Source: Ephemerocybe angulata
Lineage: Eukaryota; Basidiomycota; Agaricomycetes; Agaricales; Psathyrellaceae
DNA: 64,000 nucleotides
Assembly (NCBI GenBank): GCA_013368325.1
Contig: JAACJK010000109.1
Location: 248,001 to 312,000, forward strand
Direction of reading: 5' to 3'
The position numbers were made by a program, and so were the translations under genes. Shown piece by piece: positions 10,598 through 59,700 of the stretch; positions within the stretch are counted from its first letter, which is position 1, and every line of letters begins with the position of its first letter. The notes beneath the pieces are model-generated. The model was given only the letters and a program-made list of their open reading frames with translations, was not told the origin of the DNA and made no database searches.

Positions 10598-12735
10598 ATG
10601 AAGTCCCTCAGAAAGTCGCTCAACGGAAACAAGGACTCCTCAAAGCTCCAGATCTCAACGCCCCTGCCTATCCCAACAACTCTCTCTAAACCATCATCTG
10701 CCATCCTCCCTCCTCAGAAGGTTATCCGCGCCCTCACAACCTACAAATCCCAGGCACCGCAGGAGCTCTCTTTCAACAAAGGCGACTTCTTCTATGTTCT
10801 CAAGGACGCTGAGGACTCGGCCTGGTATGAAGCCCATAATCCAGTGACCGGTTCACGAGGGATTGTCCCTCGAGCTATGTTCGAGGAATTCTCGAAGAAC
10901 GCAATGCCGTATGTGCCTCCTCATACCATGCAACCACAGCTCACACTTCATGTGTCTATGCCAGTAACCGCGCTTCACAATTTGGTGCTCAATCCGGGGC
11001 CCCCGTTCGATCTGCTTCATCTCCCGGTGCTCCTCGCGGATATGGGCACGCCCACGGCGGTCAATCTCCAGCAGTACCGAAGACTCAGGTCTACTACGCT
11101 ATCGTTATGCACGATTTCATTGCAGAACGCCCAGACGAATTAGATGCGAAGCGCGGGGATGCTATCACGGTCGTTGCCCAATCAAATCGCGAGTGGTTCG
11201 TCGCTAAACCGATAGGCAAGCTCGGCCGCCCTGGCCTAATTCCTGTGGCTTTCGTCGAAATACACGATCCAGCAACGGGTAAACCCCTCGCCGATGTCAA
11301 CACCCTCATAGATCGGGGCGATTTGCCCAAGGTGGAAGAGTGGAAGCGCGCCATGCTGAGCTACAAGCAAAACAGCATTTCGTTAGGAGTCATCGACCCA
11401 CCTTCTCGAGGCTCAGTAGTCAACAGTCCCTTCATGCCTCAAGAAGCCTTCCAGACTGAATCTGAAGCGGACCGTCGTCCCCCCACACCCGATTGCCTTC
11501 CGGAAGGCATCCTTCTCTCCGCGGATGTCGTCTCGTTCCACTATGAGATGGAGGAGTACTGGTTCCGAATAGACGCCATCTTCCAGCCCTATGGCCCTCC
11601 AGGACAGAATCGCCTTCCCAAGGCCAAGCAACTCATCCTCTTCCGCGTTTACAACGACTTCTACGACTTCCAAGTCTCCCTTCTGAACACTTTCCCCCGT
11701 GAAGCTGGTCGAGAACCTCCCCACCCTCGTACCCTGCCATTTATGCCTGGACCCGCCAAAGATGTCGACGATGCCCTGACGAAAACGCGGAAAGATGAAC
11801 TCAATGAATATGTCCATGCTTTATGCACTCTCAGCAGATCCGGCGCGCGCTACATTCTTGAACACACTGCTGTGCGCCAATTCCTTTCACTCAAACCCGG
11901 GGACATCGAGAACGAGGTTGAGCCCCGCGCTCGTGAAATCGACGCGCTGGTCGGTGGTGATGTCGGCGATGACCTCTACGCAGCGGAGGACTACGTGAAC
12001 GACATGAGCGACCAAATTGCTCGCATGGACGTGAAAGGTGGTCGTCACAGCGATGGTTCCGACTACGAGGACGAAGGCTACGCGCCTTCTCCACAGCAAC
12101 GCCCCTTCGACCATCATCCGTACGGCCAAAATCAACGCCACGATCGCTCGCTATCCAGAGAAGAGAACCTCCGCATGCACGCCCACTCTCCATCTCATCA
12201 TCATAGCCATTCCAGAACAGGCTCAACGAGCTCCTTCCACACACACCAACCCCAATCAGCTGCACCCTACGGAACACCTCGCACCCTCTCCTCTCACCAT
12301 GAACGGGGATCCCCTACGCCGCCTCGAAATGTTGAGGGTTCAAATGGTCAGTCTCGATGGACCGACAACACTGCCTATGGCGCTGGCCCTTCAACTGCAA
12401 ATTCTTATCAATCATCGAATTCTCCTCCTTCGAGAGCACGCTCTCATTCGAACGCCAATCTCACCAATCCTCCCATATCTGCTGCCAACCCCCAGACAGC
12501 TTTCGTCAAGATCAAGATCTTCGACCGTGTAGCAGATGATCTCATCGCAATCCGGGTACACCCAAAGGTGTCGCATTCTGAACTGATGGAGAAGGTTCAA
12601 TCACGGCTGGGATCTGAAGTTACCGTGCTGAAGTATAGGGACAGCTTGACCAACACATTCGTTGGTTTGGACTCCGATGCCGAGTTGCGGGCATGGATGG
12701 ATGGGACAGACAAGCATGTGCTATATGCAGACTGA
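10598..12735 (+). CDS. BEM1: Bem1/Scd2-type polarity scaffold (SH3-SH3-PX-PB1)
   Basis: This scaffold of the Cdc42 polarity machinery binds the Cdc42 GEF, PAK kinases and phosphoinositides at sites of polar growth. It has two exons, 10598-10908 and 10965-12735, joined length 2082 nt (693 aa). Domains: a first SH3 at about residues 40-100 (ALTTYKSQAPQELSFNKGDF, RGIVPRAMFEEF); a second SH3 at about 140-210 (AIVMHDFIAERPDELDAKRG, PGLIPVAFVEIHD); a PX domain at about 270-400 (VVSFHYEMEEYWFRIDAIF, LILFRVYNDFYDFQVSLL, PFMPGPAK); a His/Ser/Pro-rich linker; and a C-terminal PB1 domain (FVKIKIFDRVADDLIAIRVH, LKYRDSLTNTFVGLDSDAEL). Domain order and length are as expected for basidiomycete Bem1 orthologues. 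The linker contains a His-rich patch. Confidence 0.93.
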
Positions 12736-13946: not shown

Positions 13947-15545
13947 CTATGCGCTACTTCGTGAAATGATCCTGTCAACCACCCATTCGGCAATCCCTAA
14001 ACTTGAAGTCAACCCCGGTGACTCAATCCCTAGCAGGCTGACCATCGGACTGAAGTCTTTGCCGATAATGCCGCCCTGGTTTGGATGGTCGACTCTGAAT
14101 ACAAAATCTTGAAACCCACCCGAAGGAGGGACGAGCTTTGGCCGCATTCCGCAATAGTCCGGCTGAAACCCCTCCAGAGACACCCCGGGCAAGTACGACG
14201 TGACAGCATTGTACATTTGTGGAAGCTGCGCCTCGTCGGGGACCAAATGCTTCGTCCAAAAATCTGCGTCCTCTTCTGGGTCCGACGAGAGCGTATCTGG
14301 GGCGGATATCCACTGAATGTCTGGTCCGAAGCGTATGCACCCGTTCAAGTCCAGTGTGAGATGGGTTCCCAGCGATTGGAATGCATGGGCGTTCGGACCA
14401 GTTTCTGGGCATGGGTATATGAGGTGCTTGACTTGCGAGACCCCAGGCCCTGAGTACTTGGCATATGACCCTTTGGCATAGTACATAGGGATCCTTTTTT
14501 CTTGTGGAAGGATTGAATTGAGAACCAGGGTGCTAGATAGGCCTGACGCGTTGACGACCGTTTTCGCAAGTATGGCATCGCTATCCTCAGCTTCTCCTGT
14601 CACCGTTTGAACCACCCAACCTGCTTCCAGCGGCTCGAAGTCGGGAACGTGGGCTGGGCGCTTCGTGCGTTGATATGGATCCAGTCGCACTACACGGGTG
14701 CGGTAACCGATCTGGCCGCCTTCGGCGTCGAGGATATCCTTCTCCAGGGATTCCATGAAGCTGTGGGAGTCGACAATGCCAGTTATGGGCACCCAAAGTG
14801 CGCCTTCGATGTCATTCGAGAGGTCGGGCTCCAGGTTTCGTGCTTCCTTCCCATTTAAGATGGAAGTCTCGAGAACAGGGTGCCCTTCGTCCTCCGATGA
14901 GTTAGGTTCGGATAGTCGGAGTTGTTGGGCCTTCTTGTGCAGTCCGTTGAGGTAGGGTAACTGGTCTTTTCGAGCAACGACAAGTTTCCCTGTCTGACGG
15001 TAGGGTATGTCATTGGATATGCAGTGTTGGTACATCAGGTCCCGACCCCGGAGGCAGAGACGCGTCTTCATCGACTCCAGAGGATAGTACAGCCCTGGAA
15101 TACAGTCAACGACATACACACGGAAAGTGTGGCCACCACCCACCTGAATGTATGACCTCCGAGTTCCGCGAGCTGTGTAAGGAGAGCGCGGTCCTATCAG
15201 TAAGGGTCAACTTCGCATAAGGAAGGCTAGTGTAACCTTATCTCCTCCCCACATCTCCGATGCCTTTCAACCAGGTACGTAGTTTTCGAAGGGAACTTCT
15301 TGCATAGACGCTGAGCAATTGCAAGTCCAACTATTCCTGTAGAATCCATGAGGTTGGTGCAAAGTAATCCAAGCTGGAGTTGCTCACCTCCTCCGATGAC
15401 GAGATGGTCGACAGCTATCTCGGGAGACTCAAGGTCAACAAGGTTAGTGTTAGAGATCAGCTTGGCGACAATTAGTAGCATGTACCTTATACCTGAACCT
15501 TCCGCTGTCGTTTAGGGCCCTCTTCAGACCTCTAATCCCTGACAT
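13947..15545 (-). CDS. L2HGDH: L-2-hydroxyglutarate dehydrogenase, mitochondrial FAD enzyme
   Basis: It oxidises L-2-hydroxyglutarate to 2-oxoglutarate (metabolite repair; DAO-type FAD oxidoreductase). I start it at the ATG at 15545: MSGIRGLKRALNDSGRF, spliced through a donor after AAG and an acceptor with a CTAAC branch site into the FAD fold SPEIAVDHLVIGGGIVGLAI (GxGxxG). Short exons then give LVERHRRCGEEI, SSRNSEVIHSG and LYYPLESMKTRLCLRGRDLM. A long terminal exon (13947 to about 15090) carries NDIPYRQTGKLVVA, NASGLSS, GPNAHAFQSLGTHLTLDL, FGPDIQW, YCGMRPKL and GIESPGLTSSLGIAEWV. All match L2HGDH. The upstream start is somewhat uncertain. Confidence 0.9.
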
Positions 15546-22258: not shown

Positions 22259-24163
22259 TCAACGGTGCTCGTCTCTATTTGCGAATAGGATATTTTTGAT
22301 ACGCTGCAACCGCCCTTGTTGGAATAGCCAAGGGGCCATGGGTTCGAAACGATTCTCCAACTCGAGCCAGATCGCTCGCAAACGGTCAACATCACGATCA
22401 CTGGCCTTGTCGAAGGCAACCATGATCCAGAAAATGGTAGACCGCGAGGGAACCACCCCATAAGGCATTGTCAAGAACGTTCGATACATCGCCTGTAGGC
22501 TCTCGAGGTCCCATTGCCTATGAGGGTGGTTCGGGTCGGCAGACACTTCCAAGCGACCGATTGCGTACTTGCTGAACCCCAGAAATACGGCGCGGAAAGC
22601 GGGAGCGGTCGACGGGCCAAGGCGCAATCGGGGAGCAGATGCTAGGAAGTCGGCGAAGATAGAGGTAGTCTCGGTGAATCTTCCGTGATAAGCCATAGTT
22701 TGTATGAGAGAGACATAGGTTGTCGAGTCGGGAGTCGCATCATTGGGGACGTGGATGTGTTCAAACGCTTCGAGGTCATTTCTAAGACGGTGAATGGCAT
22801 CCGGGTCGGGGTCTGCCTCAACGTTATTTCGAAGGATGCGGTAAATGTCGAGTGCCTTGGAATCTTGACCCGTATTCGTGAATGCCCAGATGCACGCATT
22901 GAGTCCATCAATTCCTAGGTCCATCCCATCCTCGCGCATAGTCCAGATGACGCGGCGAACGTCATCCATCTGCTTCTTCCTGGTGTAGAATTCTAAGCAG
23001 GATAGGCGGGTGATTCGGGTAGGGGGCAAGCCTGATTCCTCGAGAAGCCGATTTGCGTCTTCAAACAGCTCCGAGTCCATGGCGTTGGACGCTATGTGGA
23101 TGAGCGTTCCGAATGTGTATATGTCAGGCTGGTTCGGCGAGCTTGTGTCGAGGACGGCTGGTAAGGTAAGCTTGGAGGCGTTGGGAATTGTCGATCCTGG
23201 CCGGAGGTCGCAGATTAAGTCGTTCAGAGCGGCGAGTGATCTCTGGATGCCATCTTCTCCACCTCCCCTTCGGCCCTTGGCTGCAAAGTTGATGAGACTG
23301 TTCCACATTAACCGTGTAGGACGTCTGTCTTTCCTTCCTTTGTCCCACATATGCTGCATTACCATTAGCAACGAAGGATAGTGCGAATGGGTGAAAGGTC
23401 GAGAATGTATGATCAAATGGCATAGTCGCACCAGCAATACGCTAGGGACTCGGGATGGTGGGAATTGTTCTTGAACAACAGGGTATGTGCGTTGGATTTG
23501 GATGAGGTCCATATAGCTTTCCCAGACGTGTCGGAGCGCCTTTCCGCGAGCGATGCTTTCGAGGCTCCGATAGATAGCAAGTGAGGGGGAAGGTTCGGTT
23601 TGGCTCTCCCAGGCGTCGTCTATGGCCTTCATCCGGGGAGCCGTGACATGAGGGAGCCACCGAGCAGGGTCGACAGAGCGCCTTAGACTCTGTCCGCGGA
23701 ATGCGTGATTCGGAGGGATATGCCCTTGTTCGACGTTTCTTTTGGCCGGACGCGTGCGCTTGATCTTCTTGCCAGGCTTTTCTGGCCGTACGCGTACCAC
23801 GCGTGACAACTTGCTCCTCCCCCACCTCCGAATTTCCCTCGAACCAATTCCAGACGTAGTCGGCGTCGCATCCAAGGCCGGTGTCGCGGCTCCCTCCGAC
23901 GCGTTCTGCAGTACACCGCCGCGATCCTGACCAGAAGAGCCAGCCTCCGATGAGGGGATTTCCAGAAGGGGTCCACTGCTGGGCACCACGTCGTCTTTTG
24001 CGGTTTGGGTTCGTCTGGTCGCCAACAGTTGGCCGCCCCGGCCAACCCGGACAGCAGGTTGACTTCTGGAGTAATGGGCGACGTTCCATGGGTGAGTGGC
24101 ACGCGCACGAGTCACTGTCGGCAATGCAAAACTGAGGCCCTGCCAGGACGCTCTCAGCATCAA
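22259..24163 (-). CDS. Pentatricopeptide-repeat-like mitochondrial protein
   Basis: A single intronless frame of 634 aa, unusual for this window. The N-terminus MMLRASWQGLSFALPTVTRA is Arg/Ser/Thr-rich without acidic residues and looks like a mitochondrial presequence. After a basic, low-complexity region of about 150 residues, helical pairs spaced about 35 residues appear (YTFGTLIHIASNAMDSELFE, LNACIWAFTNTGQDSKALDI, TTYVSLIQTMAYHGRFTETT, RSTIFWIMVAFDKASDRDVD), typical of fungal PPR proteins in organellar RNA processing or translation. I cannot assign a specific orthologue. Confidence 0.8.
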   Translation of the reverse strand: MMLRASWQGLSFALPTVTRARATHPWNVAHYSRSQPAVRVGRGGQLLATRRTQTAKDDVVPSSGPLLEIPSSEAGSSGQDRGGVLQNASEGAATPALDATPTTSGIGSREIRRWGRSKLSRVVRVRPEKPGKKIKRTRPAKRNVEQGHIPPNHAFRGQSLRRSVDPARWLPHVTAPRMKAIDDAWESQTEPSPSLAIYRSLESIARGKALRHVWESYMDLIQIQRTYPVVQEQFPPSRVPSVLLVRLCHLIIHSRPFTHSHYPSLLMVMQHMWDKGRKDRRPTRLMWNSLINFAAKGRRGGGEDGIQRSLAALNDLICDLRPGSTIPNASKLTLPAVLDTSSPNQPDIYTFGTLIHIASNAMDSELFEDANRLLEESGLPPTRITRLSCLEFYTRKKQMDDVRRVIWTMREDGMDLGIDGLNACIWAFTNTGQDSKALDIYRILRNNVEADPDPDAIHRLRNDLEAFEHIHVPNDATPDSTTYVSLIQTMAYHGRFTETTSIFADFLASAPRLRLGPSTAPAFRAVFLGFSKYAIGRLEVSADPNHPHRQWDLESLQAMYRTFLTMPYGVVPSRSTIFWIMVAFDKASDRDVDRLRAIWLELENRFEPMAPWLFQQGRLQRIKNILFANRDEHR

Positions 24164-24620
24164 TAGAGCGAAGAGTCATCCTAGGTAGCACAGGAAGGAT
24201 GAGTCCAGAGTCGAGAAGCTTGGATGCTGGAAACGCACCGCTATACCGGACCCCAAATAGACGACCAGGAACGCCAGTAGCGACGTGTAGGGGAATTCCA
24301 GAGGCTCTGCGGGCAACACACCTGTTCGCTCGTCACCAACTTCCTTCCGCAAACTTTTGTCCAGCCAGCGTGGTAACAATTCCCGGCAGACACGTGATCT
24401 CGTATCAGTCCATCACACTGACAGGCCAATTAGCGCCCTTTCATTTTTTTTGCCTGCGTATAGTTCAGTTTCCAGGTATTCATCTTTCAACGGGCTCAGA
24501 AATCGTTATGGAATGTTTTTGGAATATCCTATATTTTCGTTGTGACTCGTAGTCACAGGTGGCATGCAAGGTAGGGAGTACAACATAATGTGCAGATGAG
24601 AGAGTAGAAAGCACGAAAGC
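24164..24620. other. Gap between the PPR-like gene and RPL3
   Basis: It should contain the promoter of the PPR-like gene (reading leftwards) and the 3' UTR of RPL3. No gene or clear motif seen. Confidence 0.4.
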
Positions 24621-28466: not shown

Positions 28467-30043
28467 ATGGCGCCTCCAGTGGCATATGACCCTAATTGCC
28501 CAGAGGAAATGCCCGTTCCACTTCCAAATGCTCCGATCAGGCGTGTAACAGACGTTCTTTCAGTCCAACCGCCCCTGTCACGACGAGGTCACGGTCCGGG
28601 GATTGTGATGTTTCTACCTGATGATGTACCGGCTGCTGGAGGCCAGAAGTTACTCGACCCTGGTCCCGTACAGAAATGGGCAGAGGAAGGCTTTGCGGTG
28701 GCCTTCGCCACTGCACGTCCTGACCTGGATGTGCCCCAGATCTTGGTCGATGCTCTGAACGCTCTCATCGATCTGGGTGATATCTTGGACATCAAAGCCA
28801 AGCTTGCAATTATCGGTACGCCAGTCGAATATCGTGCCCTCAGCCAGACTTGATGATGTTGAATCTTCTTCAATTGGGTAGTGTATGATGAACTAGCCAT
28901 CGACCAAGTCTATCGAGCATCTCTCGGCGACGAGCGCTTCGCCTGCATTATCGGATACGGTACTGCCCCTAGTGTCGGGATTGCATCGACGTTGCCTCTA
29001 CTGATGCACATCCTGCACTCATACTCCACACGAGCCCAGAGTAGCATAGAGGCGCACCTATATCCTGTATCCTCGGCATCATTCGTCCTCCCCGATTCAA
29101 GCGCCTACGACCCTGGGAGTGCGGCCCTTGCTCACAGCCGATCATTGGTGTTCTTGCGCAAACACCTCGGTGGTCCTCATTTCGACTTGGAGAAGATATG
29201 GGAGGAACACACTTACTTTGAGTTTGAAAGTCGGAGTGTTGCCAAGACTATGGGCACCATGGTTGTGAGTGACCCATTGGGTTTCGAAGCTGGGTCGATT
29301 TGACTTCATAACAATGTCAAGGCGGAGCCGTATGTGAACCACATTCCTACGGTATGTGTGCATTGTGATATCATAAATGTATCTAATGACGGAACGAAGA
29401 TGACTGGGGGGCTAGGACGCGAGAACTTGACAAGGTTCTACCGCGATCACTTTATCTTTTCGTGGGTGTTCAGCCCTCTCATTTCATGGTTTGCTGCCAG
29501 CGCTTACTTGTCAATTTCGAAGAAACCCGGCAGATGCCAGACTTGAGGTCGTTTCTCGCACAGTGGGGCCTGACCGCGTCGTCGGTATGCTCCCCTTTAA
29601 TATTCAAGTTTTGGCACTGACGGGCACACGCGTACGCAGACGAGTTTGTTTATCATATAACGCACGACAGGCAGGTCGACTGGCTTCTTCCCGGGGTACC
29701 TGAGACACACAAAAAGCTCGCAATCCCCATGCTCGCGGTGGTGAACATTCGAGGTGACCGGCTGTATAACGGTACGTGACAAAGACCCTTGTGTTTCAAA
29801 AAAAAAAAGGGGGGGGGGCTAACAATGGAAGCAGAGCACATATGGTGGGATCAGGCAACAGTCCTGAAGCAAGCCGGAATTCTCCCTACGTATGTCCCAT
29901 ACCCTACGCCTGAAGGAAATGTACACTCTCTCCGACTTCCCGTTGCCGGGGCAGAGTCGGCAGAAATGCTTGTAGATGAATCCAAGGGCAAAAGTAATGC
30001 GATGCTCGGGGAGGGGTGGGGTGTGGTGAGGAATGCGGCCTAA
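28467..30043 (+). CDS. Carboxymethylenebutenolidase-like domain fused to a SnoaL/NTF2-like domain
   Basis: Exon 1 (28467 to about 28815) reads MAPPVAYDPNCPEEMPVPLP then GIVMFLPDDVPAA and WAEEGFAVAFATARP, a dienelactone-hydrolase-type alpha/beta-hydrolase start. The next exon has VYDELAIDQVYR, FACIIGYGTAPSVG, an AYDPGSAALAHSRSLVFLRK segment and WEEHTYFEFESRSVAKTMGT. The C-terminal SnoaL-like part follows in short exons: AEPYVNHIPT, MTGGLGRENLTRFYRDHFIF, LEVVSRTVGPDRVV, DEFVYHITHDRQVDWLLPGV, NIRGDRLYN, EHIWWDQATVLKQAGILPTY. Stop TAA at 30041-30043. This fusion occurs in other Agaricomycetes. I see no GxCxGG nucleophile motif in the hydrolase half, so dienelactone hydrolase activity is doubtful. 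Confidence 0.82.
29798..29818 (+). repeat. A11-G10 homopolymer run inside an intron
   Basis: Eleven A (29798-29808) are followed directly by ten G (29809-29818), within the last intron of the DLH-SnoaL gene and just before a CTAAC branch-site-like sequence (29819-29823). Such runs are prone to slippage and to sequencing error. Confidence 0.9.
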
Positions 30044-31940: not shown

Positions 31941-32098
31941 GGTGATGGGAAGAAGGGGAGAGTGAGGAGATTAGATTTGGGCAAATATTTTTTGATGTCG
32001 GCTTAGGCCGTTTATAGAAACGAAACACCTAGCAATCAGCCCGCCCTTGTTACTTAACCTCCATCTCCTTCTTGAGCCAGATCCCCCAAGCTGCCAAA

Positions 32099-33674
32099 AT
32101 GTCTGGCGCTACCACAGTATGTCCTCCTTCCCGCTCTTATTCTTCAGACTACACCAACGCCGGATGGGCCAACGCCCAGGGGGCTGCCTATTTTCCCGTA
32201 TCTTGTCCATCTGACGCGTATCTCGAGCGATCCTGATCTTTCCTTTCCACAGGCAAAGACCCTAGATAAGAATGGCCAGGAGATCAAAACCGTAGGCTTC
32301 AACCGCTTCGGCTTCGACAGCGAGGTCCCAATCGACGTCCTCCGCTCCCTTTACCTCCGCCCCCACTATGCTCCCCCTGCTACCGCGGAGTCAGCCAAGG
32401 CCAAGGTCAATGAAGAGGACGAGGACAAATTCTCTTTATACCAGTCCAAGTCGATCTACTACCCGGAGACAGACTCCATCTCGTATACCACTTTGTCCCG
32501 CTTCCCGCCCGTCAAGCTGCTTCCTCCCTCCCAGCGCAAGCGTATCTTGGTCACTGGTGGCGCTGGATTCGTCGGCTCCCATCTCGTCGACCGTCTCATG
32601 GTCCTGGGACATGAGGTGACTGTCATTGACAACTTCTTCACTGGTTCCAAAACTACGGTCAGTCACTGGATTGGCCACCCCAACTTCGAGATGGTGCGCC
32701 ATGATGTCGTGGAACCATTCATGATTGAATGCGACCGTGAGTGCAATGGCGTCTTCATTTATCCTGTGTCTTAAACAACCCTTGTTCCCAGAAATCTACC
32801 ATCTTGCCTGCCCGGCGTCTCCTCCGCACTACCAATTCAATGCCGTCAAGACTATCAAGACCTCGTTCATGGGTACTCTTAACATGCTTGGATTGGCCAA
32901 GCGCACCAAAGCTCGCTTCTTGATCACCTCCACTTCTGAGGTGTATGGAGACCCTGAAGTCCACCCCCAACACGAAGACTAGTGGGTCACTAGGTTCATC
33001 TGTCATGTCACCTTTCCTGATATTCATCACTCCAGTTGGGGACACGTCAACCCCATTGGCCCTCGTGCATGCTATGATGAGGGAAAGCGTGTTGCCGAAA
33101 CTCTGACATACGGTTTCCAGAGGCAGGATGGCGTCGATGTTCGTGTCGCTCGTATCTTCAATACCTATGGCCCCCGCAGTGCGTGCTCACCCTTTCCTGT
33201 GCCAAAGTTTCGATTTGGACTTACGTCACTTCAGTGAACCCTGCCGATGGCCGCGTCGTGTCCAACTTCATCGTCCAGGCCCTCAAGGGCGAGGATATGA
33301 CTGTCTTCGGTGATGGCACTCAAACCCGGTCGTTCCAGTATATCCATGATCTCATCGATGGTCTCATCGCCCTCATGAACTCCCCCGAGTCGCGCCCTGT
33401 CAATATTGGCAACAGCGACGAGTTCACCATTGGTGACTTCGCCGAGCTTGTGCGCGAGATTGTCGAGAAGGTCCAGGACGAGGACGGCGTCAAACGCTCC
33501 AGGAGGGTCAACATCATATACAAGGAGATCCCCACCGACGATCCCCAAAAGCGCAGGCCCGACACCACCCGTGCCAAGGAGACCCTCGACTGGCAGCCCA
33601 AGTGGACCACCCGCATGGGCCTTGAGGAAATGATCAGGTATTACAAGGCGAAGATGGAAGAAGGTAGCTTGTAG
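32099..33674 (+). CDS. UXS1: UDP-glucuronate decarboxylase (UDP-xylose synthase)
   Basis: It converts UDP-glucuronate to UDP-xylose with bound NAD+ (extended SDR family), a nucleotide-sugar step for glycans. The first exon is short (MSGATT) and the second begins [19 protein letters not shown]. The Rossmann motif is [19 protein letters not shown], then [12 protein letters not shown] and [10 protein letters not shown]. Exon 3 has [32 protein letters not shown] (catalytic Thr/Ser), then after an intron [20 protein letters not shown] (YxxxK) and RIFNTYGPR. The last exon has [18 protein letters not shown] and a C-terminus ending KAKMEEGSL, stop at 33674. No N-terminal membrane anchor, so probably cytosolic, as in other fungi. 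Confidence 0.95.
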
Positions 33675-38583: not shown

Positions 38584-41500
38584 ATGTCGTCGTCCGCAGA
38601 TGGCCCCTCCACATCGTCCCATATGATGAAGACGACAAAACGCGGGAGGCCTTTCCTCAAGGTCAGTCCAGCCAGCCAGCCTGCCCAAGAATGCCCAAGA
38701 CTGACCAACCCCCAGGATACTCTCGACCTTTTTGCCACCCTCATCGTATCCCTCCAGCTTGGTCCCCACAAGCAGTTCTTCAAGACGTTTCCCCACTCCT
38801 TCACGACGTATGTACTTTCATACCGCCCACCCGCCCTGCCTGACCCCTTTGCAGAGACGAAGCCGCTCAGAATCTCGCATCGTTAAAGTTCTCCCAGTCA
38901 AATCGTGGGCCGGACCCAAGAGAACCCTCGCGTGTAATTACGACCACCACCACGACCACCTTCTCAATGACCCGCGACATGGCAAAGGCCATGAGCCAAC
39001 ACTTTATGGACGCCCGCCTTATCGAAAACGCAACAGACCCTTCCTCCAATCTCTTCAAAGATCGCGGCGTCTTCCAGCTCACGCCAAAGGGTCTCCACGT
39101 TCTCGAGCGCTTCATTGCTAAGAACGGCATCAACTCCGACCACCTCCAGCCCGTCTTCCAATCTCAGCCTATCTGCATCAAACTCCTTCATCTCGAGCGA
39201 CGGTCGGCTGACGACGAAATCATCGTCACTCAATCTGTTATCACTGCTCTCTTCCGCCGTTTCGTTGGCCGCCAGGCGAACTACCCTCCTCCCGCCTCAG
39301 ATAAACCCCTCGACACATTCCAGAGATACAACGAGCGTGCAAAGGGCATTGCCCTGTGTGATGTGACTGAGCGTGCCCAGCCTCTCATAGGCAAAGCTGC
39401 TCAGCTGCACAAGTACTGTTTCGCCGCTGTCAGCGCCCTTGAATGGCTATGCGACTTTACATCTGTCGTTGGTCGCGAAGAGGCCGCCGAAATGGCTGCT
39501 CAGTTCGTTCGCTTTGGGCTGATCACCCTCGTCAGCGATAAGCGCAAGAACAACGACTCTGCGATCATCTTCACCGTTCGTGGCTCAGCACCAGGTGGAA
39601 ACTCACCCGTTAGCGTATGTGATTCGTCTCCTTGGAAGCTATCTTTTCTGACTTTGTTGACAACAGCAAATTGGAGAGTTCCGGTGCACAGCCAAGGCAG
39701 TCTACCGTATCACTGATGAGGGTCAGCGACTTGCCCACTGGAACTCGACCAATTCGCCTAGCTCCTCGACCGCCAACCTTCATGATGATCGCTCCTCCAT
39801 CCATGGCTCAGTCGACGGCACGTCTGAATCTGGTGCCGCAAAGAAAACCACCCCCGATGCAAAGATTCATCGCCGCATCTCCATGGCTGAGAAAATGAAC
39901 GTGTCTTACGAAAACGGCGAGAGGAAGACCGCCAAGGAGAGCAACACCGACCGGCTTCGCTACATTCTCGAAGAACCGGGCCTTCGCTCTCTGTTCCGCG
40001 AGTTCCTGCGTGGCAACTTCTGCGAGGAGAATCTGTCCTTCTGGGTGGACGTGCAAGACTTCAAGCGCAAGTTTAACATTACGTCGAGCGCAATGGCGGT
40101 GGGTCCCACGGCTGCGCGACCTGGCAGCAAAAACACCCCTGGCCAGGTTGCGATGGAGAGGCATCACGAAGGACTGATCAACACGGCCTTTGTCATCTAC
40201 AACACCTATCTTGCCCCGTCTAGTCAGTGCGAACTGAACATTGACCACGGTTTGAGGAACGAGCTTGCCAAGTACCTTGAAGAGGTCGTCACAAGCCTTA
40301 CTGGAAAGGCTTTCCAGGGCAGAGTTGAACCGGAGCAGGCGACGGTATTCAACGCGACGCAGCTACAGACTATGATTATGGAGCGAGCCACTTAGTCACC
40401 ACTAGTTTGGTACAGCTCTAACTGCTCACCGTATAGTATAGATATGGAGATTCTGTCTAACAGAACTGTAGAGGAGAGCAATATGAACAAAACTGTTAGA
40501 CCGTTTTTTGAACTTTGAAGTTTTCAGAAAAAGTTGGACCGCGATTTTGCCATCTTATCTAGGTATCTTATCTCCTGCCATATATAGTAACTACATATCT
40601 AATCTAATGTCGGGGCTCGACGATGGGATGCATACTTGACAGAACTGAACTGTTTAACCTCCAGTTGGGCTTCGTGTGCCCCAAGACCCTTCCTGTAAGC
40701 CTCCATCCACCTCTTGGTGCGATTTTCCCACTTCCTGATGAGTGTGACCGGGACTGAGGCGAGTGCGGGTTGCATATTTTCCTTGAGGCCGTCGAATGTG
40801 TAATCGCAGCGCTCGCGCAAATAGCGCTTGACTGCACCCCAGAAATATTCAATGAAGTTTAACTCACAATGAAATTTGGGGAGGAAAATGCAGATATGGC
40901 CAGCCCTTTCAATGATTTCCTGCACGAGAGGTTTCTGCGCCAGAAAGTCGGGTTGCCGATCGAGAATGCGTTTTGCGCAGCAGTTGGTTGCGTCGTGTGG
41001 GCATTTCTTCGCCGATCCATCGGGGTTCTTCGAATTCCTGCACTGCATAATAAGCCCAGACCGAAACAGGCCCCTTTCCACGAGGATCTGTTTCATTCCC
41101 TTTGGCTGCGCAGGGTGTGCCGGATGGTCTCCGGGGAACGACATCTCCTGTGATACACGCTCCCCGTCCTTCACATACCATCCAGCTCGCATGTGAGGCT
41201 GATTTCCACCGGGATTGAAGTTCATTCGGGCTGTGAGTAGTGCGTCCTTCGCATACGCCGAGTGTCCTTGGGAATTATCGATGAGAAAGGCTGCTTGGTA
41301 CTCGGGACCATGTGCGCGAACAAAAGCGGGTATAATCTTGGTTTCCAACTAAGGATTCAGTCAGCGGTTAGAATAGAGTAATATACGATGCAGGGGAAAC
41401 ATTACCTGGTCTGCAAACATCTCCCCAGTCCAATATCCATCGTAATTCTTCCCGTATTCCATCGTAACACTCGCCTCCCTTAACCATCCCACAGTCGAGC

Positions 41501-44051
41501 AAATAACATCGGATTGATGAAGCCCACGCCCTGGACCTTTCTTCCGCAATGGTTGCTCGCCTCGCCAGACCCAAGACATGGATTTTCCGTCGTGAGCCTG
41601 GGCAGTCATCTCGTCATGCGCAACAACGACGATTTTGCGTTGACCCGGATTAAGATGAAGCTCCACCTCCTTGGTAACGTCGTCGGGCTTATACTGCACG
41701 AGGCAGGGCTTTAATTCCTCCATTGCTGGAAGAAAACGTCCCTGCCGGTCGTCTACAACGTCCTCTCGCTCGTGCCCATCGTAGTACAGGGCCTTCTTGT
41801 GTGCCGTATAACGAAATCCTTCTTTGCGAAGCCACCGTTGCGCTGTGCGAAGCGAGATGCCCTTTGCAACCTTCATGTGTACTCGAGGGAATAGCTCGAC
41901 CTCCAGATATTTTTTCAACCCCCTCGGCATCTCCACAGACACAACCTGCTGCAGATACTTCTTCGCTTCACCAGGCAGCAACTTTCCCTTCGTAAATTCG
42001 GCAAGTTTCTTCGGATTCATGGACCATTTCTCGGATCGAAGGAACGAGCGCAGTTCTGTGCACACCTCTGGATCGTCGAGCAGGGAGTAGACTTTTCCAT
42101 GGCATCCACGACGCGATTTTGGCAGAGACCTCGTTGCTATCCATACCCCCACCCATTCCCGCACCTGGCGAGCCCCCCACACCTTACTAAACCCCGTAGA
42201 CTCTGCTGCCCGCTCCGAGGCGTCGATTAGACGCCGGTGATCCTTTACAACGAGCTTTAAACATATTTGGATGGCTCTGGCACGTTTCGCCTGAAGGCCG
42301 TTTCTCCCAGCGTCGAAATGGTCCTTCTTCGATGAGAGAAGCTTCTCTATCTCGATTAAAGCCTTAGCGCGGTCACGGCGTATTTTTTCGGACCTCTGGC
42401 GCTTCTCCTCTCGTGCAGGAATATCCAAACGACGACGCTTCGGTGGGGGAATTGGCCTGATACCATAATTCGCATCGGGTGCACGCCGGCGTGTCCTGGA
42501 TGTGCTTGCATGGCTCTCCTCTTCCTGACGTGGTTCGAGTACAACTGGGACCTCGTTTCCTTCCTTTTCCAACTCCCCTTCGCTGCCTTCGCCTTCCTCG
42601 TCCTCCCAATCCGATATTTCGATCGCACTCTCGTCTGAGAGGTATCCTGTGCACACATGGGCACCAACATCGTCTGGGAGGTTGTATTCGGCTTCGTTCT
42701 CCGTGTCCGAAGTTATTTCGATGACTGGGGGTTGAGGTAACGTGCCCTGCGCTGCAGTAACCGTACTAGACGATGCCCGAGGTTCGACAGTAAAGAATGA
42801 GCGAAAGTTTGCAGCTTGATCCCTAAATAATTGTATAGAACTTTTAGAGATAGCTTCGTCGAGCTTACTGGACCATACTCACGAGTTTCGAGTCACGACA
42901 TCTCGCTTCTCCTTGTCCCTCGCTTTTTTCGAGTGATCTCGCACTGTACGAGGCGCCCTGCCAGTATACCCAAAGCCCCGGTTTTGCTCTGCATTGGCCC
43001 AAGTCTTCTCTGGCTTTTTAGCCGTGATGTCCTCGTATGGAGTTGGCTTTAAGAGCTCCTCAACCTCGTTCTCCAATTCCAAAAGGCTGCATTGCTCCCT
43101 GAGGTTTTGAAGAATTTCGTCGGCATCCATTTCTTCGTCCACACCTTCATGCACCTGATCCAATCCCTCCCATTCCCTCTCCAGATCCGACTCGTCAGTA
43201 AAATCTGACCCCGATTCCCACCAGTCCTCATCCGACTCTGAATCACTTGCGATGTACTCGACAGTCCCATTCCACTTTCCACACAGACACTCATCGTCCT
43301 CAGCATCCACAACAATAACCACTGGATCCACAAATCCCTCACTAAGGCTCTCAGCAGCCCCTGGTGCTTCATCCTCCGAGTCTGTGCTGATTTCGACTGG
43401 TGGGTTTCGTTTTGCCGCCTTTCCAGCTCGGGCGCGCGCTGCCCTCTCGTAATTAGTCTTGCTTTTCTTCGTCTTGGGCATTCGGATGGATAAAAAAGCG
43501 AGTATATAGTTTGAGGACTACAGGAGGTACAGCTCTACCCGAAATACTCGAGTTTTATGCTGCGCAATGTGCCTCACACCCACCTCGCGCACTCCTGCAG
43601 GCGCGTGTAGGTCCCAAATAAATATAGATAAATAGTCCAAAATCCGATTTTCTTTCCTCAGCCGATTTTGCCGCTGTTCCAAATAGGTGGTGACTAAGCG
43701 GCCCGCTCCATAGGCTGTACGAGCGAATTCAGATGCATGTTTTCCGTCTTATGGCCACCGATTCCGTGCCCAAGGTTAGTTCATCTTTCCCCGCCCTTCC
43801 TTTTTCATGCCGCTGATATAGAATCATAGTTCATCAAAACCAACAAGTTCCTGGCGATGCGCGGTTGGGTTGAAGATTTTGACCCTACGGAGACCGACAT
43901 ACACATGCTCACGTCTGGCCCTGGCCCTTCCTCGCCACCTGGCTTGAACACCGTTGAAGAAGTTGGCGGTGCATACATCACGATCTCTCAGCATGCTAGC
44001 GAGCGGGAGCATCGGCAGCATATAGCAGCCAAAGAGGCTGAAGGTTCATAG
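38584..44051 (+). CDS. DEP-RGS regulator of G-protein signalling (FlbA/Sst2/Thn1 type), interrupted by a transposon
   Basis: A GTPase-activating protein for a heterotrimeric G-alpha. Exon 1 begins MSSSADGPSTSSHMMKTTKR at 38584; exon 2 DTLDLFATLIVSLQLGPHKQ; exon 3 carries the DEP domains (MAKAMSQHFMDARLIENATD, LHKYCFAAVSALEWLCDFTS, AAQFVRFGLITLVSDKRKNN); exon 4 holds the RGS domain (LRYILEEPGLRSLFREFLRG, NFCEENLSFWVDVQDFKRKF, STYL-like NTYLAPSSQCELNIDH, FNATQLQTMI). The reading frame then runs into a 3332 bp DDE transposon (40379-43710) and stops after five foreign residues. The rest of the RGS domain resumes at 43713 (LYERIQMHVFRLMATDSVPK) and, after one intron, ends KEAEGS with TAG at 44049-44051. 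As it stands the allele encodes a product of about 550 aa lacking the last RGS helices. Confidence 0.92.
40379..40416 (+). repeat. Left terminal inverted repeat of the transposon
   Basis: 38 bp beginning TGGAGCGAGCCACTTAGTCA. It pairs with the right end with 6 mismatches. In the RGS frame it supplies the premature TAG at 40393-40395. Confidence 0.9.
40599..43481 (-). CDS. DDE transposase of the inserted element, three exons, intact
   Basis: I splice 42883-43481, 41406-42822 and 40599-41348. The joined length of 2766 nt is divisible by three (921 aa). The N-terminus MPKTKKSKTNYERAARARAG is basic, followed by a long acidic region (EISTDSEDE, SDSESDEDWW) and NRGFGYTGRAPRTV, then DYNY-like RRRAPDANYGIRP and a basic KRRRLDIPAREEK stretch. 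The catalytic part includes [57 protein letters not shown] and [20 protein letters not shown], giving candidate D, D and E catalytic residues. Both introns have GT-AG ends (GTGAGT; GTAATG). No stop or frameshift, so it may be functional. Confidence 0.88.
43673..43710 (-). repeat. Right terminal inverted repeat of the transposon
   Basis: Read on the minus strand it begins TGGAGCGGGCCGCTTAGTCA, matching the left end at 32 of 38 positions, and is followed on the plus strand by the second TA copy at 43711-43712. Confidence 0.9.
43713..44051 (+). pseudogene. Severed 3' end of the RGS gene
   Basis: Downstream of the transposon the RGS frame continues directly: LYERIQMHVFRLMATDSVPK, a GTTAGT intron, then FIKTNKFLAMRGWVEDFDPT, TETDIHMLTS and KEAEGS. 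It cannot be translated as part of the RGS protein while the element is present. It shows no decay: frame and splice sites are intact, consistent with recent insertion. Confidence 0.88.
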
Positions 44052-44845: not shown

Positions 44846-46348
44846 ATGTCGTGGTTCAAGGAAGCTGCAGGGGGAGGACCTCCGCCTTCCTTCAAGGAGG
44901 AGCAGGACAAGCTCACGGAGGACGACCCCGCCATTCCTGGTCGTAAAGTCAGCAACAAGTCTGCGAACCGACCGTTCCTTGCGTGCGTCCACCTACCTCC
45001 TATCTATCATGAGAAGCTCCAGGCTTACGGTTGTCGCTCCTACTTCTCTACACAACGACTACGTGGTCTATCGGTGTTAAAATACAGCTACGCTGAGTAC
45101 CGACAGCGACAGGAAAAGCTGCACGAGGAATGGTTGGAGAAAAAGAAAGCGCGCGACGAGAAGATTGCACGAGGAGAGAAAGTTGGGCCCCTCGAGCGTG
45201 ACCCGACTGCCGTCGAAGAGGTTGGGGTGCTTGGGCTCCTGAAATTCCTTCTCGTGGTTGTGGTGGTTACAGCGTTGGCGGGCAAGTTCGTTACAAACAG
45301 CTATACTTGGGACTATGAGGCTAGGTGGATGCAGCTGAAGTCGTGGGTGCCGGTGCGTTGGACTTCATCCGTTCGGATAGTGAGGAATGCTGGTGGAATG
45401 GTGGCCACGTCGTGTGGACCGCGTACCGAGTCAGGAGGGTCAGGAGCCCTACCGGCAGCTGTGCTCTTTCCATCCAACCGTGTGGTACCATGCGCCGGCT
45501 ATGGCGAACCATGCTCCGTGCCTTGAGGAATGTGGGGCTATGCGCCTGGGGCACTACCGTCCACATGAGGACTCTGACTGGGTGCAGCTAGCCATCTTGT
45601 CTCCGACGCGTTGAACTCGCCTACTCGTCGCAGCATCCACAATCTCCTTCACACATAACTAACAATTAACCCTAGGAAGGAGGTCGATTGTTTTCACCCG
45701 AATTCCTGGCTACATACAATGGAGAGGATCCAGGCAAACCAATTTATATTGCCGTACGTTTTCACTGCCCTGCACCCGCAGCCGGCGTTTCTTAATTGTC
45801 ACGTCCGTCCGAAAGACTCATATTGAACTGACTATTGTCTCCTGCGTGTGTGTTAGATTGATGGTGATGTCTACGATGTTACAAAGGGTGCAGCATACCA
45901 GAAAGGTGGCTCATACCATATACTGTGCGTCAAAATCTTGGAGCTTCCTTTTGCCGGCCACTAACAATCTGCATTTGTATTCAAATCACAGAGCCGGGAA
46001 GGAAGGTGCAAGAGCGTTTGGCACTGGATGCTTCAAGGAGCATATGACGCACGATAAACGTGGGCTGAATAAAGAGGAACGCGATGTGAGCTTTCCAGCA
46101 ATCTCGGAGATAACTAGCACTCACCGTTCGGCGCCTCCGTATCACAGGGTATCGAGCACTGGAAGACATTCTACCGCGATCACAAGAACTATTGGAAGGT
46201 TGGAAAAGTCGCACTTCCCCCTATTGATCCCAAGAGCGACCCACCTTTGCACTGCGACCCTAAGAGGAAGGCTGAGGAGCTGGCAGCTCGCGAGAAGAAG
46301 GCTGCAGGTGCCCAGCGGCCAGTTGCTGCTCAACATGAAGAGCTATGA
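44846..46348 (+). CDS. Membrane-associated progesterone-receptor (MAPR) family, cytochrome b5-like heme-binding protein
   Basis: A DAP1/PGRMC-type protein that binds heme and in other fungi supports P450 and sterol metabolism at the ER. Start ATG at 44846: MSWFKEAAGGGPPPSFKEEQ, an intron, then YAEYRQRQEKLHEEWLEKKK, a membrane helix VLGLLKFLLVVVVVTALAGK and WDYEARWMQLKSWVP. After a 323 nt intron (45353-45675) the cytochrome-b5-like domain begins: EGGRLFSPEFLATYNGEDPG, KPIYIAIDGDVYDVTKG, GGSYHIL, AGKEGARAFGTGCFKEHMTH. The last exon reads EHWKTFYRDHKNYWKVGKVA and ends QRPVAAQHEEL with TGA at 46346-46348. The YDV..GG.Y..LAG.DA.RAF pattern is diagnostic; the luminal or cytosolic side is not decided. 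Confidence 0.88.
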
Positions 46349-49852: not shown

Positions 49853-51431
49853 TTATGTCTTCGCATTCGCTGCCGCGACCATATCTCTCGCTTCCACCTC
49901 AAAGGCTCTGCAGTCCACGACTCTGCCTTCCTTTCGGCTGAGTTCCGCCGCGAAGACGATCAAATGATTTTGCATGACCTCCTCCACGTTGGTTCCAAGA
50001 ATCTGTTGTTTTCCGAATCTAACGGCCTCAACGAAAGAGCGAATGAGGCCGATATCTCCTCCACCGTGTCCTCCTAGATTGCTAGGCCGGAAAGTTTTGC
50101 TCGTTTTCTTCCGGAAGTCCGTTACTGTGAATTTGTGCATGTCTCCCACGATCTCGCCATGGGTAAAATGAAGGCGTGTCTGCCGCTCGCATATGGTGGA
50201 GCTGAAAGCTACCATGGTAAGGGATGCTGTCGATCCGTTGGAAAATTCTAGGTTGACGACCTGATTGTCACAGACATCATTCTCGCACTCATAAACACAG
50301 CGGCCATAGGGTCCAGTCTGGAGGGCCTCCATCACGTTCTCGATGTCTGGGACGCCATCCACTAAAGGTTTGATGGGCCAGCCAGTCTGACCATGAGCAA
50401 CTGGCTCCAGGTAAACTATTAAAAAGGAAAGACCAGGGCTCGTCATTAAAATGCATGATGGTATAATGAGCGACGTACTCTTCTTCGCACTGTATTCACA
50501 TTTTTTCTCCATGGGACAATCTAAGCATCGAGTAGCTCCCCTGGCCTCCATGGGCTTCGATGCTTTGTTAAAGTGTTTCAGAGAACCGAAGGAAGACACC
50601 CGGGTAGGCTTTGCTGGACCAAACCAGTGACACAGAAGGTCAATATCGCTAAATCCAAAGTTAAGTGATGCCAGGCCGATGAAGCTGGTGTGGATGCACA
50701 TACTGGCAGCATTTGGTCATCAAGGAAAAGGAACTGTCCCGCTCTTTCCCCCAGCTCCCTCTCACGTAAGAGTGAGCGAAGTGATAGTATCCTACTGGCT
50801 CAACATGTACAGCGTTGACCAGCTCCCCCAAAGACCCAGACCTAATGACTTCTGTTATCTCTTGGCTGTAAGGCGAGTACCGCATTACTAGATTGGATTT
50901 ATGTCAGTGTCTATTACGATGTTTGGAAGTTGGGCAGCTTTACCGTGTCCCATTCCAAAGATTATGTTGGCCTTTCTGACAACCTCTTCCATCTCAATAC
51001 ATCCCTCTACGGACGTGGACATCGGCTTCTCGCAAAGGATATGATAACCTTGCTTAGCAAACGCCGTAGTCACTTCCAGATGCATATGATCCTGTACAGT
51101 CACCAGTACTGCGTCCGCCAAGCGCTTGCCGATGGCTTTGACAGTGTCCTCTGAGGCAGCCAAGAGTTCCTCCCAAGTTCTAAAGACAAGGGTCTGATCG
51201 ATCTGGTGCTCTTGGGCGAACTGCTTACGCGTCGCTGGTCGCGGCTCAGCAATAGCAACGACTTTGCACTGCTCTGGAAAGTCTAGAGAATACTGAGAGT
51301 AATTCTATGGGATTGTCAGTATCCTGGATAGTCCTTGAGAGCTCTCACATCATCACCTTGCCTCGCTGCCCACAGCCAATTACCGCCAAGGTTACAACCG
51401 ATTGAACCCCCGTCGAGGTGGGTAGCGCCAT
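49853..51431 (-). CDS. Gfo/Idh/MocA-family NAD(P)-dependent oxidoreductase
   Basis: This dehydrogenase family acts on sugars, inositol and related alcohols. Start ATG at 51431: MALPTSTGVQSVVTLAVIGC, with GCGQRGK as the Rossmann glycine loop. Then after an intron QYSLDFPEQCKVVAIAEPRP, WEELLAASEDTVKAIGKRLA, DAVLVTVQDHMHLEVTTAFA and the hallmark GYHILCEKPMSTS (EKP motif). Later exons: VMRYSPYSQEITEVIRSGSL, VEPVGYYHFAHSYVRGSWG, HDIDLLCHWFG-type segment (DIDLLCHWFGPAKP), VNLEFSNGSTASLTMVAFSS, GGDIGLIRSFVEAVR and a C-terminal helix ending AANAKT. Substrate unknown. A cysteine-bearing insertion (CLDCPMEKKCEYSAKK) is notable. Its start codon overlaps that of the divergent gene. Confidence 0.87.
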
Positions 51432-56713: not shown

Positions 56714-59700
56714 ATGGACGCCGACGACGATTGGAACAGGCTGCTCAAGGACCACCCCATATTCTCCTTCAAGAACAAGTATCCTGACCTCTCCAACGAC
56801 TCGTTTAAGAATGAGCTTGAGCTCTCGACCAACACCCTGCCCAAATTCCTACGCGCTGATCCCAAGCACGATGACCCCACGCCGTCTGGTCGCCGCCAGA
56901 CAATGGTTTTGAAGGATGCAGACCTTGTTGTAGCAGTCGGAAAGGAACTAAGGATAACGTCTCTTGGAGACATCAAGCTTGGGCGGAGCACGCGGAAGTC
57001 GTACAAGGTGCCGACGCAATTAGCTCTTCCACGTCCCCGCCAAATTGACCAGAAGAACAGGTTCTCCATACGCCGAACTTGGACTTTGAGATACACCAAA
57101 TTGCTCTGAACTCCAATGGAAAGCTGCTTGCAGTTGCAGGAGCCTTTCAAGTTGCAGTCGTGATCATGCCGAGGGCGGGTTACAGTCGCCTGGTTCCAGA
57201 CTCGATAGAGTGCAAGTATGCCTCCCAACACGTCCTTTGAAAGCTGCCTTGGAGACTGACAAATCTATGTTGTATAGAGCTGTTCACATTGGCCAATTCT
57301 ATCACGGAGCAGAAGATGCAGCGCCAATAGCCAAGGTCGATTGGCATCCCTGGGGCGAGGCAGGGTCTACCCTCCTTGTGATGACAACAGATGGAAAGTT
57401 CAGGTCAGTTTACGCGCCTCATTTTGGTTCAACGTGCGCCTCATTCTGGTATCTAGGGAGTACGATATATCTGTCGACACTGAAGAACCACAACAAGTGT
57501 TATCGTTTGTCCCTCCAAGGAAGTCGGGGTCGTTCGCGGCTGAAGACGAGTCTGAACGAGAAGTCACATCCTTCACCTTGGGCAAGGGAAGAGCAGATTG
57601 GGGTCCTTTAACGGTCTATGCTCTCATGAAGTCAGGCGACATATATGCTCTGAGCCCCTACCTTCCACAAAATGCGTAAGTCCTACTGTGACCTGGTTGG
57701 TGTCGCCTGACAATTTCCTGCAGTTCAGTCCCAACATCTTACGTCCATTCGCTTGAATGCTTTATTTCTGCGAAACAAGACCAGCTACACAATGGAACGG
57801 CACCAGCCAGCAATCAACTATCGACGTGGTATGACTACCAGAGCAAATACGTGAACTCCTTGATTAAACAGCTCCCGCCCGGCACTGGCTTCCCTGCTAA
57901 CACCCGCGCTGTGTCGCTTCATCCTCCAAAGACTATCGCGAATCCTCTTTTCCGACAAGGTCCTTTCCTTCTTCAACCCGTCCCCAGGATTCTGGACGGG
58001 AGCGAGGGAGGTGATGCTACTGACATTACATACCTGTCGTTCACAACCGACGAAGACGAGGCTGATAGTGAGGGTGACACAGACCATCTCGGCGTCATTG
58101 TGGTTGCCTATCAAGATGGCAAAGTGGACGTTTTCCTGGATGTGGAGAAAGTGGAGGCGAAATGGGAAACAAAATATGTATGTCTCACTCTACCTGGTGG
58201 CACCAGGACCTGCCGCTGACGTGCAGTAGACTCGCAAGAGCGATTTACCCATGCTTGCGGTCTACGAATCTATCGACCTTGGGCTGATTACGACTCTCAC
58301 ACAATCGGGATCCACAGCCAGAGATACTTCGTCACTTGCATTACTTCAAGGAAATCATCCAGTCTTCCTACCCGATCCCATTCATGATGACATCGTCTAT
58401 GTGTATCATGCATTTGGTGTGCATGCTTTGGATGTCTCTCCAGTCCTGGAGAGTTTGTCCCGAGCCCTTCGGGTCGATGACGCTGATGCCGAAGCAACCC
58501 TACGTTCGACCCTTGAGCAATGCGCTCAGACAACGGTGCGGCCAATCCTCACCACGTTCTCGGTAGAGCGAAAGTACGTCTAGGCCCTTGATCCATCTGG
58601 CTTGGCAATTGCTTATCGAGTCTCTAAAGAGGATCCAATCCAATAACCGGCCTCGCCGTTCCAAACGATGTTTATCTGACATACAGCATCTTCATGCTGA
58701 CGTCTACCCTTCGTATCACTGTCTTCCCATTGAACCTCCAGGTGGAGCCAGCGAAGCAGGAGCCAAAGAAAATCGCAGGGCTTCAAGACTCCGTTCTCAA
58801 TGCCTCGGTCGCAAAGGACAAGTCTGCTTGGCTAGAACCAGCCGAAGGACCTGCTCCTTATGTATCTCTTCTTGGGGACCCTTACACACCCCACCCACTG
58901 CTGCGCTCATCAGGCCTTCCTCCTCTTGCAAAACTATCGCTTCCATCAAGTGCTTCCTCTAAAGAATTCATGCTCACTCCTGATACGCTTCGGTACATTG
59001 GGAAGATCGTAGAGCAGATCACTGGGCAAATTCATGAGTTGCATGTTGCACAGCGGGCGGCAGAAGCTCGTGTCAATCTACAGCAAGAGGAGCTGAATCG
59101 CCAAGTCGCCAAGTGCCGGGAGATGGAGCAGACAGTTGGAAGGCTGAAGGCGACTGCCTCTTCGGCGACCGGATCGCGATTGCAGATGGTGGAGGAGACC
59201 CAGAAAGGGTTGATGAAGCGCCTCGATAAGCTACTTCAGAGTCTGATGGCGAAGGCGTCTCCGGAACTCAGCGAACAAGAATCCAAGTGGTTCGAGGAGC
59301 TCAAACGCATGAAGGAGGAGATCTTAGGGCGAGGAAGGTATGATGAGGGAGCTCTCATTTCGCGAGTAAAATTGGTATGTCGATCATTGCGACCTCCCTT
59401 CAGATATCTGATTATCTCCCTCACAGCTCGAACGTGAATATGCGAGAATACTGCCATCCCTCAAGTCCCTTGTTGAGAGGGAAAAGGCGAAGAACGAGAG
59501 GAACTCTGAGACAAATCGTAATCTCGGTTTCTCTCAAGCATTTGAATACGGCAAGCGGTCTAATGAAGAGTATGTTTACAATTTTGTGGCCTCATGGAAA
59601 TTATCACTGACGAACGACGCTTCATAGTGCGAAGCGGATATCAAAGATCGAGAACGAACTTGTGAGGCTAGCGGCCAAACTTGATCTTAATCTCCCTAGA

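Follow-up and report, generated by a model that had tools for sequence, protein, structure and literature searches.

The interrupted DEP-RGS gene

We analysed a 64,000-nucleotide stretch (the window) of the genome of the mushroom Ephemerocybe angulata, comprising positions 248001-312000 of contig C146 (1,881,189 bp) in an assembly of 58.7 Mb and 232 contigs, which is a consensus sequence. Within it lies a gene for a protein with a DEP and an RGS domain, one exon of which is cut in two by a complete transposon flanked by TA dinucleotides. We hold with considerable confidence that this is a recently active Tc1/mariner-like insertion in the only DEP-RGS gene found in the assembly, likely a loss-of-function allele and possibly one that arose in culture. 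E. angulata and Coprinellus angulatus share one taxid in NCBI taxonomy. The strain sequenced is probably CBS 175.51, which Table 1 of PMC9469724 flags as one whose genome has been published; a passage of PMC10182949 gives the C. angulatus genome at NCBI as 59.3 Mb, the assembly used here being slightly smaller.

The gene was modelled as five coding exons on the plus strand, running from 38584 to 44051 and separated by four GT..AG introns of 47-55 nt each. Exon 1 (38584..38661, start codon to donor) was placed by splice model and frame and matches the public protein discussed below, and exon 2 (38716..38807) was placed by the splice model. Pfam matches and the splice model assign the DEP domain (PF00610) to exon 3 (38855..39614) and most of the RGS domain (PF00615) to the 5' piece of exon 4 (39667..40376), which covers PF00615 positions 2-83 in one search and 2-90 in another, of 117. 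Beyond the transposon, the 3' piece of exon 4 (43713..43774) encodes the remaining RGS domain, LYERIQMHVFRLMATDSVPK, and in the splice model retains an intact donor, GTTAGT; the last exon (43830..44051, frame and splice model) carries the native stop at 44051. The exon halves and the splice site show no decay, as had been noted in the original prediction, which was made from the letters of the window alone, and the 3' frame is open to its stop. DEP lies N-terminal to RGS, as in regulators of the FlbA/Thn1 type, and by its sequence the gene appears to be of the same type as Schizophyllum thn1 (thn1/flbA/crg1 type).

The inserted element is 3,332 bp long (40379..43710), with its transposase on the minus strand; its limits follow from its ends, from its copies in the genome and from their alignment. 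It is bounded by terminal inverted repeats of 38 bp at 40379..40416 (plus) and 43673..43710 (minus), and by two copies of TA at 40377..40378 and 43711..43712, a target-site duplication evident from the ends in the window and, for the left copy, from the single TA at two sites without the element (on contigs C214 and C88, see below). With the TA copies included, the arms 40377-40416 and 43673-43712 measure 40 nt (38 without them) and are 85% complementary. A 22-nt end pattern, allowing up to 3 mismatches, matches the window at the two ends of the element only, against a mean of 0 matches over 100 shuffles. The coordinates, the TA copies and the inverted repeats all agree with the claim of a complete transposon at 40377..43712.

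The RGS frame reads ...FNATQLQTMI up to the left TA and stops five residues past the junction, at a premature TAG (40393..40395, plus strand) inside the left inverted repeat, so that the translated protein ends in ...QTMIMERAT. On the far side of the element, GG at 43713-43714 completes the R codon AGG, and LYERIQMHVFRLMATDSVPK follows; the frame continues as originally proposed, although the L of LYER begins at 43715 rather than at 43713. When the element and one TA are removed in silico, the protein reads QTMI-R-LYERIQMHVFRLMATDSVPK (...QTMI-R-LYER...), an exact in-frame join that had been foreseen and that agrees with relatives. The public E. angulata protein D9611_002296 (P0001 in our homologue set), a model of 552 residues ending in QTMIMERAT, matches the window's RGS query at 100% identity. 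Its last five residues (MERAT) come from the second base of the left TA and the inverted repeat; the C-terminal end of this model is an annotation effect of the insertion, and the public E. angulata RGS protein model is thus the transposon-truncated product. The missing part amounts to roughly the final quarter of the RGS (GAP) domain and includes the conserved LMxxDSxPxF segment; the DEP part is complete. The earlier description of a split catalytic domain is correct as to the interruption but not as to the word catalytic, since this is not strictly an enzyme domain.

From 2,080 homologues found, a list of 120 was examined, with the window's own protein among them, and the following counts refer to that list. 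The DEP and RGS domain set is precomputed for these proteins, including Coprinopsis cinerea Crg1 (87% identity) and a Schizophyllum amplum protein (76%). MIRLYE is present in 71 of the 120, and 118 are continuous across the insertion point by pattern, with P0080 added by eye (119 of 120); the sole interrupted protein is P0001. The closest other relative listed, P0002 of Candolleomyces eurysporus, has exactly the residues predicted at the junction. Alignment to DEP-RGS homologues, proposed with the original prediction as a check, therefore bears out the continuous frame. The segment of P0002 that matches the lost end also aligns, as a weak second stretch, with the solved structures of RGS17 (YEDAQLQIYTLMHRDSFPRF) and RGS10, and this is the segment of RGS that we take to contact G-alpha.

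Copies of the element and signs of movement

As our genome search scores the best candidates only, copy counts of the element and of its miniature relatives are lower bounds. We detected five complete copies (C146, C125, C22, C15 and C18) and two contig-end pieces (C20 and C21), in addition to short or diverged matches. That C15 and C20 represent two insertions was rejected, because they read as overlapping contig ends, whose common flank shows no mismatch and 10 gaps along 5.2 kb; with C20 counted together with C15, there are six insertion sites. Each of the 18 variable columns in the alignment of the seven copies is a one-base gap, and none is a substitution. The five complete copies differ by two one-base gaps and no substitutions, which sets a 95% upper bound of 1.8e-4 substitutions per site (16,680 bases, star tree). 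The window copy is one A short in a run of A residues near 43638 that lies outside the coding exons; the C18 copy has a one-base deletion in a C run of transposase exon 2.

The genome also holds a miniature family, of which eight copies were found. Seven of them are 440 bp long and identical, and the eighth, of 384 bp, lacks 56 bases and has 0 substitutions. They lie at C146:1408941-1409380 and C146:1735240-1735679 and on C133, C94, C68, C60, C11 and C209. TA is found on both sides of all five complete copies and all eight miniature copies. Because the miniature ends (49-50 bp) match those of the full element at 86% identity, the miniatures may be mobilised by the transposase of the window element. 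When the 1-kb flanks of 13 insertions and of the empty site on C88 were joined, the longest candidate frames across the insertion point were 42-626 aa: 273 aa for the RGS gene, 626 for the miniature at C146:1408941, 243 for that on C68, 363 for C88 and 42-190 for the other ten. Genes besides the RGS gene may or may not have been hit by this element family.

Sites without the element were found for two of the copies. The C18 copy lies in a dispersed repeat, and its joined flank aligns with C214 over 500 columns at 85% identity, with a single TA at the junction; the same junction is spanned at 78-79% on C68, C54 and C117, which are candidate empty sites. The second case is at a different locus. 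Contig C21 (G000:C21:1-964) starts inside the element and continues into a flank that C88 (G000:C88:14815-14823) has without the element and with one TA. Over 2.8 kb, C21 and C88 differ by one mismatch beside a gap and by 25 gaps, 23 of which are bases missing from C21; over 5 kb C88 is 99% identical to C21, and the large contig C22 begins in the same sequence. The ends of the element and its TA duplication are independently supported, because the empty site on C214 and the empty allele on C88 each carry one TA.

This pair is most simply read as C21 representing a minority version that was assembled at low coverage. Since filled and empty versions thus occur on otherwise matching sequence, the element was probably moving within the sequenced culture, although excision instead of new insertion would also explain the pair. 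An assembly chimera was judged unlikely, as the junction falls exactly at the element end and TA, and the flank equals C88.

Together, the absence of substitutions among the five full copies and the filled/empty pair in one assembly support a recent insertion in the RGS gene, a claim that had earlier been argued from lack of decay alone. That lack of decay would also be seen if an old, fixed insertion were tolerated by the gene, for example with the element spliced out as a long intron and the RGS protein still made. The sequence offers two sites for such splicing: the right junction ATAG could act as an acceptor, and the element's first GT (40395-40396) begins at the final base of the stop, so that a donor there would remove part of it. 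However, joining this GT to the right-junction ATAG sets G after TA and restores TAG, a donor further upstream would lose coding sequence, and the introns of this gene are only 47-55 nt long. We rejected an old fixed insertion on the continuity of the listed homologues and the near-identity of the copies elsewhere, and consider it highly improbable.

Predicted consequence and nuclear state

Exon 4 of the E. angulata DEP-RGS gene took up the element at a TA, presumably by cut-and-paste with the element's own transposase as its family suggests, and the encoded product keeps the DEP part and has lost the end of the RGS box. Without the LMxxDSxPxF segment, this product would not stimulate GTP hydrolysis on G-alpha subunits, and G-alpha signalling would consequently be kept on too long. 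By analogy with thn mutants, and unless another nucleus has an intact allele, a culture with this loss of function would be expected to grow flat, form few aerial hyphae and be impaired in fruiting. As movement of the element had probably not ceased in the sequenced culture, it may have entered the RGS gene while the strain was kept in a collection.

Given that the DEP part is complete and that the truncated protein of 552 aa is annotated, the product (DEP and most of the RGS box) might instead be stable, and dominant or altered in function rather than null. We regard this as unlikely, since the lost end belongs to the RGS domain in solved relatives and its removal should destabilise the helical bundle. 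Two RGS-domain loci were found in the genome in a search that scored three candidates exon by exon, so that more may exist, and only one of the two was found to be a DEP-RGS gene. Compensation by the second locus, on C223, was judged unlikely, as this locus has PXA, RGS and PX matches in adjacent frames and no DEP match, presumably a sorting-nexin arrangement.

Mushroom cultures are often dikaryons, and the C21/C88 pair indicates that two versions of one locus can occur in this assembly; the insertion could therefore be heterozygous, the assembly having collapsed or dropped an intact RGS allele, with little functional consequence. However, a search of the assembly for a second copy of the RGS flanks found none for either flank, and all 19 STE3 matches are on contig C117, whereas two divergent mating-type clusters are normally expected in a dikaryon. 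Moreover, nearly all differences between C21 and C88 are single-base gaps, unlike those between two outcrossed haplotypes. The single RGS flanks and the STE3 matches on one contig fit a single nuclear type, though without proving it, and we think a heterozygous insertion improbable. Four Homeobox_KN matches, which may include mating-type genes, lie on C20, C223 and C77.

Several points weigh against a recent, possibly culture-borne loss of function. Its basis is sequence, and the argument from copy identity depends on taking one-base gaps (in C18 and the window copy, with more at the contig-end copies) as long-read errors. Of the filled version on C21, a single junction with the flank has been assembled, and the RGS insertion itself may stem from a wild parent rather than from culture. 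The exon-by-exon search may have passed over a divergent or intron-split RGS gene able to compensate, and, the assembly being a consensus, a minority of nuclei may carry an intact RGS allele.

Elsewhere in the window there are six ordinary Pfam neighbours (10840-12732, 13950-15206, 22262-24175, 32076-32771, 49856-50716 and 58628-59434). An SH3 and PX protein, a FAD-dependent oxidoreductase and an epimerase were identified by Pfam, and a PPR protein, a GFO/IDH/MocA oxidoreductase and Nup54 more weakly, below the cut-off. A 48-nt direct repeat (29420-29467 and 46153-46200, 71% identity), with a FYRDH-type motif readable in both copies, possibly reflects paralogous exons. A tRNA search of the window with bacterial settings found none.

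Comparison with known transposons and RGS mutants

The transposase, modelled as 921 aa, is encoded by three exons on the minus strand: exon 1 (42883..43481) with the start codon and many acidic residues, exon 2 (41406..42822) with the first D (D603) and the preceding region, and exon 3 (40599..41348) with the second D (D696), the E (E839) and a weak DDE_3 match. The second D and the E are 142 residues apart, compared with 104-152 across 31 aligned proteins, and the spacer contains conserved Cys residues in this family. The predicted fold of a relative is nearest to the catalytic domains of Mos1, SETMAR and Sleeping Beauty; other transposase folds were missing from that comparison, which is no evidence against them. 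When solved structures were searched with a sequence profile of the transposase alignment, two weak matches appeared (E 0.35 and 0.36), to an NF-kappa-B-binding-protein-related factor. Five families are listed for 39 transposase relatives, none of CENP-B type, with HTH_17 in two and HTH_Tnp_Tc3_2 in one. Named members of the family come from Agaricomycetes and Glomeromycota, and one is labelled Salix.

The element thus resembles Tc1/mariner elements (Mos1, Sleeping Beauty, pogo/Fot) in its TA duplication, its inverted repeats and a DDE_3-type transposase with an RNase H-like DDE/D domain related to Mos1/Tc1. It differs in its spacer of 142 residues, compared with 34-41 in the families numbered in the relevant part of PMC7325037, where pogo is given as DDxD and IS630 without a number; the third catalytic residue is E in all 31 aligned transposases, which does not fit the pogo pattern. 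The spacer Cys residues and the 921-aa modelled protein are further features of the window element, and a family with a 104-152-residue spacer may deserve its own name. Near-identical full and miniature copies, together with the filled/empty pair, make this element, with its unusual transposase, a candidate for an active Tc1/mariner-like transposon that could become a tagging tool for mushrooms.

If loss of function is true, published growth and foraging traits of the E. angulata strain may partly be RGS-mutant traits. An empty and a filled RGS allele would form a natural pair for testing the role of RGS in coprinoid mushrooms. In the part of a soil-chip study consulted, C. angulatus is described as fast-growing with little branching; that part shows no comparison strain with an intact RGS gene, and we draw nothing from it. 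Among the papers listed in our literature searches (open-licence PMC papers only), we found no prior report of the E. angulata RGS insertion and no relevant paper on RGS loss in degenerating cultures.

The closest parallel is Schizophyllum commune, in which thn1 alleles were reportedly caused by transposition of scooter (Fowler and Mitton 2000). A passage of PMC7810277 presents the thn strains 4-39, H4-8 and W22 as results of transposition into thn1, an RGS gene, in keeping with the parallel drawn in the original prediction, by which a different, TA-duplicating element hit the same class of gene in the window. Flat growth with reduced aerial mycelium is named as known for RGS mutants in an excerpt of PMC8161036, and a section of PMC5428507 calls thn a homologue of flbA and describes no fruiting bodies upon its inactivation. 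In both species an RGS regulator of one type has been hit by a transposon in a cultured mushroom; the species differ, and so do the elements: scooter is of the hAT type with an 8-bp duplication, and the E. angulata element duplicates TA.

In Marasmius oreades, according to the portion of PMC9674265 consulted, transposons were mobile in monokaryons kept in culture, while the natural dikaryon remained intact. As described there, MarorTcMar-18/-21 and MarorhAT-10 likewise combine an autonomous element with short relatives that have matching ends, and new and mosaic insertions occur in cultured mycelium; activity was shown by comparing derived lines with their source, whereas in E. angulata we infer it from one assembly. 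Taken together, the thn mutants and the M. oreades transposons make culture-borne RGS loss in E. angulata plausible by analogy. More tentatively, and with the odds rather against it, the DEP-RGS gene (thn1/flbA/crg1) may be broken again and again by active DNA transposons in mushroom cultures maintained for a long time, where losing this brake on G-protein signalling would be favoured or tolerated, through unrelated elements in unrelated species; the E. angulata strain of litter-decay and hyphal-growth studies would then be such a mutant. A transposon-broken RGS gene is a kind of mutation already known from thn1, a story that here gains a second species; new here are the species, the element involved and the indication that it moved in culture.
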